In this document: positions 25,052-29,045 of the stretch, in pieces
How positions within the stretch are numbered: position 1 is the stretch's first letter
How the letters are laid out: every line of letters begins with the position of its first letter
Source of the DNA: Mycobacteriales bacterium
Lineage (GTDB): Bacteria > Actinomycetota > Actinomycetes > JAFAQI01
Direction of reading: 5' to 3'
DNA: 64,000 nt
Assembly (NCBI GenBank): GCA_035550055.1
Contig: DASZRO010000031.1
Span: 62,001 to 126,000, forward strand
The notes under the pieces: model-generated
What the model saw: only the letters and a program-made list of their open reading frames with translations
Told to the model about the DNA's origin: nothing
The model's database searches: none
Made by a program: the position numbers and the translations under genes

Positions 25052-27553
25052 GTGCACACGTCTGCCCGGTTCTCCGCCGTGGTCGTCGGGGTGATCGCCG
25101 TCGTCGTGCCGGCGTCGGCGTCACGTCACCACCCCGCTCCGCGCCTCGCTGACCGTCCGCGCGCGATCGCGACCGTGGACGTGTCCTCGTTTGCGACCCA
25201 GCCGGTCGTCCTCACCGGAGCGGACTTCCCCACCTGGTCGAGCGGTCCGGAGGTGACGGCCCGGGTGCCGCAGCTGCCCAACTACTACGGTGTCGCCAAC
25301 ACCCAGTCGTGGCTGCCGAAGCAGCTGCGCAGCGCCTGCTACCAGCCACACCCGAAGCCGGACGTGAACGGGTATGTCGACCCCGACCACGACGACCACA
25401 ACTGTTTCCAGCCCAGCCAGCTCCCGATCCGCACCCTGCTGCCCGGCGTCGCGACGGCCAGCCTGCGGGGCTACGCGTGGAACGGAAAGCGGTTCGTCCA
25501 GATCCCGTTCCAGGTCGACCCGATGTGGACGCACTACATCTCGAACAACGCGTCCGGCTTCGCGGTGTACTCGGGCACGGACCAGTTCCTGACCTACTCC
25601 TTCGACCACGAGCCGTTCCTCGACACGACGAACGCGGCGCTGCCGGCGGACTGCGACCCGGGCAAGGACGCGGCGACACCGGGCTGCATCCCGCCGGGCC
25701 CGCATCAGCTCGCGCAGGCCGGCATCGTCTGCCGGGCGAAACCGGCCAACGGATTGCCGGACCCCACCCCCGACCCCAATCGCGGGTTGATCGACACCGA
25801 CCAGCTCGCGTTCATGGCGCGTGACGCGGCAGCAGCCGCGCCGCGCGACGCCCGGCTGCCGACCGGCATCGTCTCGGCCAACCAGGTCGCCGTCGTCGAC
25901 CCGGGCACCGGCCAGACCCGCTACGCCTACGTGATGGAGTCCGCGACCGGCGCCCACGGCCACCGCTGGGCGGTGCCGATGCGCTACACCGCGAAGAACT
26001 CGCCGTACGTCCGCTACACGCCCGACCCGGACGCGGACACGATGGTCTACTCGCAGAGCTCGTACGGCGACTACGGCAACGCGCCGTACGGGCCTGTGTG
26101 CACGCCCGACGGACAAGCGGTCATCGGGCAGGGCTTCCGCTACAACAGCCGCCACGACGTCGTCCTCGACCCCAAGACCTACGTCCAGCGGCGCACCCTC
26201 GACAACGCGACGGTGACCACGCCGCGCTACCGATTCCGCTACGACGGGCGGTGGCTGATGGACGACCTGCAGGTGTCGAAAGACGACCGCGGCTTCACCA
26301 AGGGTGACTACGGCCCGAGCCTGATCGACCGCTTCAAGGCGCGTGCGTTCCAGCAGTCGCCGGCCGGGCAGACGCCGTGCTGCGGGTACGAGGACGAGCA
26401 GAACAACTGGGGTGGCTCGTCGATGACGATGGGGATCAGGGTCGGCCCGGTTCGCGACATCCGGGTGACGTGGGGCTCGGACTCCGGCACGAACGTCACG
26501 CGGACCGACATCTTCTACCCGTACTCGATCGTCCACGACTACGGCATGCGGGTGCATCCGATCCCGCCGCTGGACGGCATCTACACCCAGTGGGACATGG
26601 CGGCCGGGGAGATCACCCGCTACTACAACCCGTACAACCCCAAGGGTGTGCCGGTCGAAGGCATCAACCCGGTGCTCTACGGCGACATCAACGCCCACAT
26701 CGGCCCGGACGGCATCTCCGAGTCGAGCAACGACGAGCTGGGCCGGATCGAGAAGTCCCTCACCGGGGGCAAGCCGCTGACGATCGGCAACCCGAACGAC
26801 GCGAAATGCACCTCCGACGCGTGCGTCTACGGGTCGTTCAACCTGCCCGACGTGACGTTTTCCGGAGTGGTCCCGGAGGCACTGTCGTGGGAGGAGATGA
26901 CGGGTCCCGCCGGCACGATGGTCGAGAAGTGGGGGCTGTCCCAGAACCAGCCGCTGTCCCCGGGTGACGTGCAGGGCCTGCTCGTCGCGCAGCCGTACTA
27001 CGTCGACGACTCGTGCTTCGACGACGGGACGGGTGACAACCCCGGCCCGCATGTGGCGTTGCGCAGCCCGGACGAGCCCACGACCTGGGGCTTCGCCGAC
27101 ATCGACGGCAAGCCCGTGGCACAGACCCCGGCGCCGGCGACCGAGCATCGTTATCACGGTGTCGTCCACGACGACGGCGCCACGTATCGCGGCGATGAGG
27201 TCTACCAGCGGCGGTGCTGGAACCACACGCGTTCCGGCGCGCCGTACAACATCCCGGGCACGGCGACCTTCGACGCCTCGAAGCCGGTCCAGCGGCCCGA
27301 TCCCGCCCCCGACCCGAGCTTCGGCCCGCAAGGCGACGTGCGCTATCTGCAAGGAGACGTCGCGACGCACGGGCTGCACATGCTCGTCGTCGCCGAAAGC
27401 GACAACGCGGAGCTCACCGTCCCCGTCGACGAGATCGACGCCGAGGACAACCAGCTGATCCTTCCGCCAGGAGTCGGCAACGTCGGCGACGCCGCCTCAC
27501 GTGCCTACCTGCTGCCGATCACCACAGCCGTCGTCACCCCGTGGATCGGCTGA
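25052..27553 (+). CDS. large secreted protein of unknown family
   Basis: An 833-residue protein with an N-terminal signal-like segment (FSAVVVGVIAVVVPASAS). It is rich in Tyr, Trp, Asp and Pro and has scattered Cys (QTPCCGYEDEQNNWGG, CTSDACVYGS, DDSCFDDGTGDN, QRRCWNH), typical of a beta-rich disulfide-bonded extracellular protein. Long acidic and aromatic motifs such as FYPYSIVHDYGMRVHPIPPL may line a carbohydrate or metal site, but I do not recognise a domain. GTG 25052 starts the exported form. The 3' end overlaps the converging OsmC gene by 20 bases. Confidence 0.65.
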   Translation: MHTSARFSAVVVGVIAVVVPASASRHHPAPRLADRPRAIATVDVSSFATQPVVLTGADFPTWSSGPEVTARVPQLPNYYGVANTQSWLPKQLRSACYQPHPKPDVNGYVDPDHDDHNCFQPSQLPIRTLLPGVATASLRGYAWNGKRFVQIPFQVDPMWTHYISNNASGFAVYSGTDQFLTYSFDHEPFLDTTNAALPADCDPGKDAATPGCIPPGPHQLAQAGIVCRAKPANGLPDPTPDPNRGLIDTDQLAFMARDAAAAAPRDARLPTGIVSANQVAVVDPGTGQTRYAYVMESATGAHGHRWAVPMRYTAKNSPYVRYTPDPDADTMVYSQSSYGDYGNAPYGPVCTPDGQAVIGQGFRYNSRHDVVLDPKTYVQRRTLDNATVTTPRYRFRYDGRWLMDDLQVSKDDRGFTKGDYGPSLIDRFKARAFQQSPAGQTPCCGYEDEQNNWGGSSMTMGIRVGPVRDIRVTWGSDSGTNVTRTDIFYPYSIVHDYGMRVHPIPPLDGIYTQWDMAAGEITRYYNPYNPKGVPVEGINPVLYGDINAHIGPDGISESSNDELGRIEKSLTGGKPLTIGNPNDAKCTSDACVYGSFNLPDVTFSGVVPEALSWEEMTGPAGTMVEKWGLSQNQPLSPGDVQGLLVAQPYYVDDSCFDDGTGDNPGPHVALRSPDEPTTWGFADIDGKPVAQTPAPATEHRYHGVVHDDGATYRGDEVYQRRCWNHTRSGAPYNIPGTATFDASKPVQRPDPAPDPSFGPQGDVRYLQGDVATHGLHMLVVAESDNAELTVPVDEIDAEDNQLILPPGVGNVGDAASRAYLLPITTAVVTPWIG

Positions 27554-28040
27554 TCGTGAGCTCCGGCGGTGACGCGAGGGTCTGGTAGACGACGCAGTAG
27601 CGGCGGGTCGTCTCGATCAACGCGTCGAGGTCCTCCGCAGGCGCCTGCGAGGTCAGGTCGAACGACAGGCGTACCGCACTGAAGCCGACCGGCGCTTCGC
27701 GGTCGACGCCGAGGGTCCCGCGGAAGTCGAGATCACCCTCGGCGCGCACGCTTCCCGCCACCGCTATCCCGCGCGCCGTCGCCACCGCGCGCAGCGTCAC
27801 GCCGGCACATGCGACGAGCGCCTGCAAAAGCATGTCGCCGGAACACGCGAGGGAGCCGTCGCCTCCGGTCGCGGGATGCAGCCCGGCGGCGACGAGTGCC
27901 CGCCCGGTGCTGACCGAGCAGGCCACCTCGTCGTCGCTGAGCGAGCCGGATGCGTGAAGCGTCACTACCGCGGCCTCGGGCTGGTCCCGATACCGGTCCT
28001 TGAGCGGAAGCTGTGCCTCACGCAGTCCGGCGGCGTCCAC
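27534..28040 (-). CDS. OsmC-like family protein
   Basis: A 168-residue protein of the OsmC/Ohr fold. The central helix has the active Cys in LLQALVACAGVTLRAVA, followed by the beta-strand LDFRGTLGVDREAPVGFSAV; a second Cys (RRYCVVYQTL) sits near the C-terminus, giving the two-thiol set used by OsmC/Ohr peroxidases. It would reduce organic peroxides or act on thiol adducts. It starts 4 bases after the DUF4242 stop, forming a two-gene operon controlled from the array at 28345-28407. Confidence 0.82.
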   Translation of the reverse strand: MDAAGLREAQLPLKDRYRDQPEAAVVTLHASGSLSDDEVACSVSTGRALVAAGLHPATGGDGSLACSGDMLLQALVACAGVTLRAVATARGIAVAGSVRAEGDLDFRGTLGVDREAPVGFSAVRLSFDLTSQAPAEDLDALIETTRRYCVVYQTLASPPELTISRSTG

Positions 28041-28344: not shown

Positions 28345-28407
28345 ACCGTACCAACGGTATGTAAGTCACATACTGTCGGTATGTAGTTACACATACCGCC
28401 AGTATGG
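28345..28407. promoter_or_regulatory. array of three operator palindromes at 23-bp spacing
   Basis: Two palindromes are near-identical: ACATACTGTCGGTATGT (28368-28384) and ACATACCGCCAGTATGG (28391-28407). A weaker one (ACCGTA ... GTATGT, 28345-28362) lies exactly 23 bases further up. The half-sites alternate every 11-12 bases. The array fills the gap between the divergent DUF4242-OsmC and TetR genes, as expected for a cooperatively bound TetR operator. Confidence 0.75.
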
Positions 28408-28430
28408 ATGTCAAGAGCTCGAGGGGTGCA

Positions 28431-29045
28431 GTGTCGAAACGGGCGTCCAACCGTGCGGCGCAGGCGACCGAGACCCGCGGCGCGCTGCTCAACGCCGCCC
28501 GTGAGCTGTTCGGCGGCCAGGGGTACGCCGCGACCTCGATCGAGGAGATCGTCGATCGCGCCGGCGTGACGAAGGGTGCGCTCTACCACCACTTCGCGGA
28601 CAAGGAAGCGCTGTTCCAAGCCGTGTTCGAGCAGGTCCAGCTCGAGGTCTCGGACGCAGCCGTTGCGGAGTTCAACCAACCCGACTCCTGGGACGCGCTG
28701 GTCGCGGGATGCCTGCTGTGGGTCGACGCGCACGAGGATCCGGCGGTTCGCCAGATCGCGCTGATCGACGCCAGGGTCGTCCTCGGCTGGCAGACCGCAC
28801 GGGAGATCGAGACCAGGTTCAGCACCGTTGCGCTGCGTGGTGCGCTGCGCAAGGCGATGCACGCCGAGGTCGTCGTGCGGCAGCCGCTGCGTCCGCTCTC
28901 GGCGATGCTCATCGGTGCGCTGAGCGAGGCCTGCCTGTACGTCGCGAGCGCGGACGACGGCGCCGCAGCGCGCGACGAGGTCGCAGAGCTGATCGTCTTG
29001 CTGCTGTCCGGATTGCGGGCAAATGCGATGGCCGAGGTCGGCTGA
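28431..29045 (+). CDS. TetR/AcrR family regulator
   Basis: A 204-residue TetR protein with the N-terminal helix-turn-helix YAATSIEEIVDRAGVTKGAL and YHHFADKEALFQAVFE, and a ligand domain whose C-terminus (RPLSAMLIGALSEACLYVA) is typical of a common actinobacterial subgroup. GTG 28431 with GAGGGG upstream is preferred; ATG 28404 lies inside the last operator half-site. It most likely controls itself and the divergent DUF4242-OsmC pair through the array. Confidence 0.85.
   Translation: MSKRASNRAAQATETRGALLNAARELFGGQGYAATSIEEIVDRAGVTKGALYHHFADKEALFQAVFEQVQLEVSDAAVAEFNQPDSWDALVAGCLLWVDAHEDPAVRQIALIDARVVLGWQTAREIETRFSTVALRGALRKAMHAEVVVRQPLRPLSAMLIGALSEACLYVASADDGAAARDEVAELIVLLLSGLRANAMAEVG

Follow-up and report, generated by a model that had tools for sequence, protein, structure and literature searches.

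Three tandem palindromes between a TetR_C_41 gene and an SCO4226-like/OsmC-like operon as putative operators of an EthR2-like repressor

Described relatives and the layout of the locus

The nearest solved relative of the repressor discussed here is Rv0078 (EthR2) of Mycobacterium tuberculosis, which has a divergent target gene, Rv0077c, and an operator in the gap between the two genes. The published Rv0078 operator is a single 21-bp site for two staggered dimers, which share it cooperatively; Arg48 is the only residue seen touching a base, the R48M substitution abolishes binding, and a fatty-acid-like density has been seen in the protein (PMC6016246). EthR, acting on ethA-ethR, is another TetR repressor; its operator, which lies between divergent genes, is long and accommodates several dimers, and EthR octamerises there cooperatively (PMC5403819). 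The dimer-of-dimers TetR regulators CprB and QacR have operators longer than tetO, each being one site for two overlapping dimers. CprB forms a cooperative dimer of dimers, and its consensus starts with ACATAC (PMC4150764). A literature search on DUF4242 and TetR found nothing on such a gene pair, and a search on tandem TetR operators found nothing closer.

In the window, that is, the whole 64-kb stretch of DNA analysed here, the tetR gene (28404-29045, forward strand) encodes a TetR_C_41 (EthR2/Rv0078-like) repressor with TetR_N (74.1 bits, cut-off 24) and TetR_C_41 (86.5 bits, cut-off 27) domains; the solved structures closest to it are those of Rv0078/EthR2 of M. tuberculosis (5icj and 5wm9, E about 1e-38). 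The divergent operon begins with an SCO4226-like gene (DUF4242, PF14026; 28045-28317, reverse strand; 82.7 bits, cut-off 28.5), and an OsmC-like gene (27534-28040, reverse strand; 59.7 bits, cut-off 27.5) begins a few bases after it. The earlier note had named TetR, DUF4242 (now 'SCO4226-like') and OsmC as the neighbours, with an array of palindromes between them, and the domain matches confirm this. Nickel binding has been reported for SCO4226 (PMC4186839), and an operon of one metal-type and one OsmC-type protein is ordinary in itself. The OsmC-like gene is adjoined by a region (25052-27553) encoding a predicted 833-aa protein without a Pfam match.

The same layout, with DUF4242 and OsmC genes in this order facing tetR, is found in the orthologous loci L092 (77% identity), L093 (69%) and L018, while the contig of L012 stops within the DUF4242 gene; as in the Rv0078/EthR2 system, the target gene diverges from the repressor gene and the gap between the two holds the operators, in the window and likewise in orthologues. 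The window locus differs from Rv0078/EthR2 in having three separate sites, in its DUF4242-OsmC target, which replaces an alpha/beta-hydrolase-like gene, and in the Lys that takes the place of Arg48, with CATACC replacing AACAG/CATACA half-sites. Since this Lys stands in place of Arg and the operator base has changed to match it, the window TetR belongs to the same subfamily but is no EthR2 orthologue. For EthR, the cooperative octamer is an experimental result. The ACATAC with which the CprB consensus starts recurs in the window array, whose operators are likewise longer than tetO, but the window sites are separate tandem palindromes and not one site for two overlapping dimers.

The palindromes and their distribution

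The gap between tetR and the DUF4242 gene measures 86 bp and is filled by three imperfect 17-bp palindromes of the form CATAC-N5-GTATG, a motif that also lies upstream of the genes of related repressors. Site 1, CCGTACCAACGGTATGT (28346-28362), is the most degenerate, with 5 of 8 positions symmetric and 20.3 bits (rank 2); site 2, ACATACTGTCGGTATGT (28368-28384), is the strongest, with 7 symmetric positions and 28.6 bits (rank 1); site 3, ACATACCGCCAGTATGG (28391-28407), overlaps the ATG at 28404 and has 6 symmetric positions and 18.7 bits (rank 3). The scores come from a position weight matrix that combines 20 operators from ten distant Lys-type relatives (L094-L096, L098-L101, L103-L105), the window's own clade being excluded; over the 64-kb window, the three sites take ranks 1-3 and the next-best position reaches 11.7 bits. 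The matrix is not wholly independent of the window, because the search for the relatives' operators used a 12-letter half-site consensus that came from the window in the first place; a 10/12-letter match should turn up in about 1% of comparable upstream stretches (our own arithmetic, equal base frequencies), and all ten distant relatives carry two such upstream matches, far beyond chance. The three CATAC-type palindromes reported earlier for this gap are real and likewise far beyond chance; the starts given for them, 28368 and 28391, hold, but the first, 28345, has to be moved to 28346 (20.3 versus -32.9 bits).

The pattern CRTACYNNNRGTAYG has four exact matches in the 3.5-Mb genome, three of them being the array sites and the only other one lying at C29:22694. 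When one mismatch is allowed, the background dominates (61 genome matches versus 46 in the control), and a near match on C83 (L011) has no clear promoter context at a quick look; the genome search for a wider regulon yielded no convincing further sites. The paralogue L002, encoded in the same genome (36% identical), was considered as a sharer of the motif and rejected, as its upstream repeats, CCGACCG..AGTCGGTCAGCG (by eye), differ.

Among the five orthologous loci (the window, L092, L093, L012 and L018), site 2 is conserved and sites 2 and 3 stand 23 bp apart without gaps in every one; across the five aligned sequences, the half-site columns agree in 4.4/5 on average and the other columns in 3.3/5. 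The start-to-start spacings of the triple are 22/23 bp in the window, 22/23 in L092, where the counterpart of site 1 is also 22 bp from site 2, and 23/23 in L093. The third site stays under the threshold in L012 and L018; in L012, the site 3 partner scores 5.1 bits, which is below the threshold. The comparison with related loci that the earlier note had proposed thus finds the half-sites kept, and the triple kept in L092 and L093, and does not refute the array.

Sites upstream of TetR genes were counted with leave-one-out matrices in 84 loci. At least one site was found in 59 of them (two in 39 loci, one in 17 and three in 3), and the three-site loci are the window and its two closest orthologues (L092 and L093) only; no site was detectable in one Lys-type relative (L137) and in 24/66 Arg-type loci. 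With 39 two-site loci against three three-site ones, tandem pairs prevail in the subfamily, and the triple is found in the window clade. The array had been described as more elaborate than the usual single operator; elaborate it is, but the commonest state is two tandem palindromes, about two helical turns apart. By sequence comparison, the window array is a three-site variant of the tandem-operator arrangement common in the TetR_C_41 subfamily. The same motif and tandem palindromes accompany TetR_C_41 repressors facing VOC-like genes, both actinobacterial (L094-L105) and rhizobial (L034, L036, L039, L040), and the actinobacterial group combines Lys with CATACC, as in the window; these groups differ from the window in having a pair of sites, separated by 32-42 bp in the actinobacterial and by 27-29 bp in the rhizobial loci, and a divergent gene that looks like a VOC/glyoxalase fold (by eye). 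In L013, L107 and L097, the TetR_C_41 gene faces a gene that looks to be of the DinB/maleylpyruvate-isomerase type (by eye).

The recognition helix and the operator base

The residue of the window TetR equivalent to Arg48 of Rv0078 is Lys (VTKGALYHHF), while most relatives have Arg, and the recognition helix varies together with the half-site: TKG goes with CATACC and TRG with CATACA. The letter beside CATAC, a position that lies outside the scoring of the site detector, was counted in both halves of each site. In Lys-type loci (L001, which is the window, L092-L096, L098-L101, L103-L105, L123 and L129), the letter is C in 54 cases, T in 9, G in 1 and A in 0; in Arg-type loci, it is A in 95 cases, T in 9, G in 4 and C in 4. 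Scored per locus, with five ambiguous loci excluded and 50 remaining, it is C in 14/14 Lys types and A in 36/36 Arg types.

In a tree of 82 proteins, there are 5 switches of the residue and 4 of the operator letter; the independent Lys/Arg contrasts agree in 4/4 cases, two of which lie on well-supported branches. A phylogenetic sign test of the link between residue and operator found too few independent switches for significance; the parallel switches nevertheless speak against a single shared ancestor as the sole cause of the covariation. The pairing of Lys with CATACC and of Arg with CATACA suggests a specificity rule for TetR_C_41 repressors, relating one residue to one base, which is testable. 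The match to the relatives' operators and the covariation of the recognition helix support the assignment of the sites as operators of the adjacent TetR; binding of the array by the encoded repressor is well supported, with the covariation as the strongest evidence. A concrete operator motif can now be proposed for the TetR subfamily to which the drug-relevant EthR2 belongs.

Spacing, occupancy of the sites and the EthR2 loci of mycobacteria

The three palindromes are probably (about 0.85) autoregulatory operators of the adjacent EthR2-like TetR_C_41 repressor, covering the shared divergent promoter region. What the sequences establish is the identity of the sites, their conservation and the covariation of residue and base; the degeneracy of site 1, the third site that stays under the threshold in L012 and L018, the relatives in which no site was detected, the small number of independent Lys/Arg switches and the negative promoter scan weigh on the other side. 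That they might serve another regulator, or be a chance or structural repeat, is very improbable; nothing specific favours it beyond the large number of TetR genes in the genome, and it is opposed by the presence of the motif upstream of many genes of the same TetR subfamily, where it varies with the recognition helix, and by the near confinement of the sites to the window locus within the genome.

On the reading of the sites as operators of the adjacent repressor, TetR dimers would, without inducer, occupy all three palindromes and mask the promoter region shared by the divergent units. The DUF4242-OsmC promoter would be blocked at site 1 and the tetR start region at site 3, with site 2 as the strongest anchor in between. 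A small molecule in the C-terminal pocket would free the repressor, and both tetR and the DUF4242-OsmC operon would be induced. The inducer is probably hydrophobic or electrophilic, because a fatty-acid-like density was seen in Rv0078 (PMC6016246) and the partner genes of the relatives look to be of the detoxification type (by eye). The array covers both divergent gene starts, and site 1 overlaps a candidate -10 element for the DUF4242-OsmC operon, TACGGT (28345-28350, reverse strand); the equivalent place has TACGGT in L093 and TACGTT in L092. A scan of the gap for sigma-70-type promoters found none, so we infer promoter occlusion from the anatomy of the locus. Two starts come into question for tetR, the ATG at 28404 and a GTG near 28431 that is preceded by GAGGGG. 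In the stretch that follows site 3 (28408-28431), GTCAAG, right after the site, is retained in L012 and L018 as well, although it falls outside the tetR frame there, so that it may be a DNA-level element and translation of tetR may begin at the GTG farther downstream.

The half-sites start at 28346, 28357, 28368, 28379, 28391 and 28402, with steps of 11, 11, 11, 12 and 11 bp, which agrees with the 11-12 bases stated earlier. An exact interval of 23 bp had also been claimed; since site 1 is in register at 28346, the start-to-start spacing is 22 bp for sites 1-2 and 23 bp for sites 2-3. At 10.5 bp per turn, sites 2 and 3 are rotated relative to site 1 by 34 and 103 degrees, respectively, so that no single face of the DNA carries all three, and the earlier claim of a common side was too strong; the sites come near to one common face only at 11 bp per turn. 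Spacings of 18 to 42 bp occur in the subfamily, those of 21-24 bp forming the commonest class and recurring in several lineages; helical phasing gives p 6e-4 with raw counts, and p 0.40 with unique spacings and p 0.08 with clusters, once relatedness is reduced.

These measurements bear on two readings of how the array is filled. In one, which has about an even chance of being right, the sites are independent operators, one palindrome for each of the divergent promoters (sites 1 and 3) and an extra one, bound by dimers that do not interact, so that the spacing would mirror the distance between the promoters; the outer sites do lie at the two gene starts, the relatives are mostly two-site, and their spacing (about 22, 27-29 or 32-42 bp) follows lineage and not the helix. 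It leaves unexplained both the rank of site 2 as the best match and its retention, and also the spacing of 22-23 bp that sites 1-2 and 2-3 share in the window and in L092. The other reading, a cooperative array as suggested in the earlier note, is plausible but tentative, and we regard it as the less probable of the two; dimers would touch or aid each other, directly or through DNA shape, and produce a steep all-or-none switch; the sharing of one operator by two Rv0078 dimers, the octamer of EthR, the dimer of dimers of CprB and the recurrence of 21-24 bp in several lineages all favour it. The rotations of 34 and 103 degrees, the breadth of spacing in the family and the loss of phasing on correction for relatedness stand against it, and where cooperative pairs are known, both dimers bind a single site, overlapping there on opposite faces, which is a different geometry. 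The spacing is compatible with a cooperative multimer of the EthR type, but not diagnostic of one, and each site may take one dimer or two staggered dimers. Doubtful as a whole is the fuller proposal of a cooperatively filled three-site array in which specificity would depend on a single Lys (CATACC)/Arg (CATACA) switch in the recognition helix, made in parallel several times in TetR_C_41 repressors along with their operators.

The register of window site 3 recurs in the EthR2 loci. Over the region compared, one mycobacterial locus (L106) has 92% identity to Rv0078, and 20 more (L147-L166) were retrieved via the published start sequence of Rv0078, a primer (PMC8634040). In all of these, a palindrome such as ACCAACAGGTTGTATGG spans the ethR2 start codon from -13 to +4, -13 being also the register of window site 3, and it lies 22 or 26 bp from a second, upstream palindrome; the latter resembles the published 21-bp operator, as judged by length and inverted repeats only. 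The open-access literature searched describes one operator only for EthR2 and does not describe the start-codon palindrome. These loci suggest that, in mycobacteria, the EthR2 operator region includes one more site, which lies at the ethR2 start codon and has apparently not been described. In the EthR2 loci, one site (-39 to -19) is 4 bp longer, about 21 bp, and one site of L093 (-72 to -52 from the start of the match) is likewise enlarged by 4 bp to about 21 bp; the enlarged sites have two overlapping registers, like the Rv0078 operator with its two staggered dimers.
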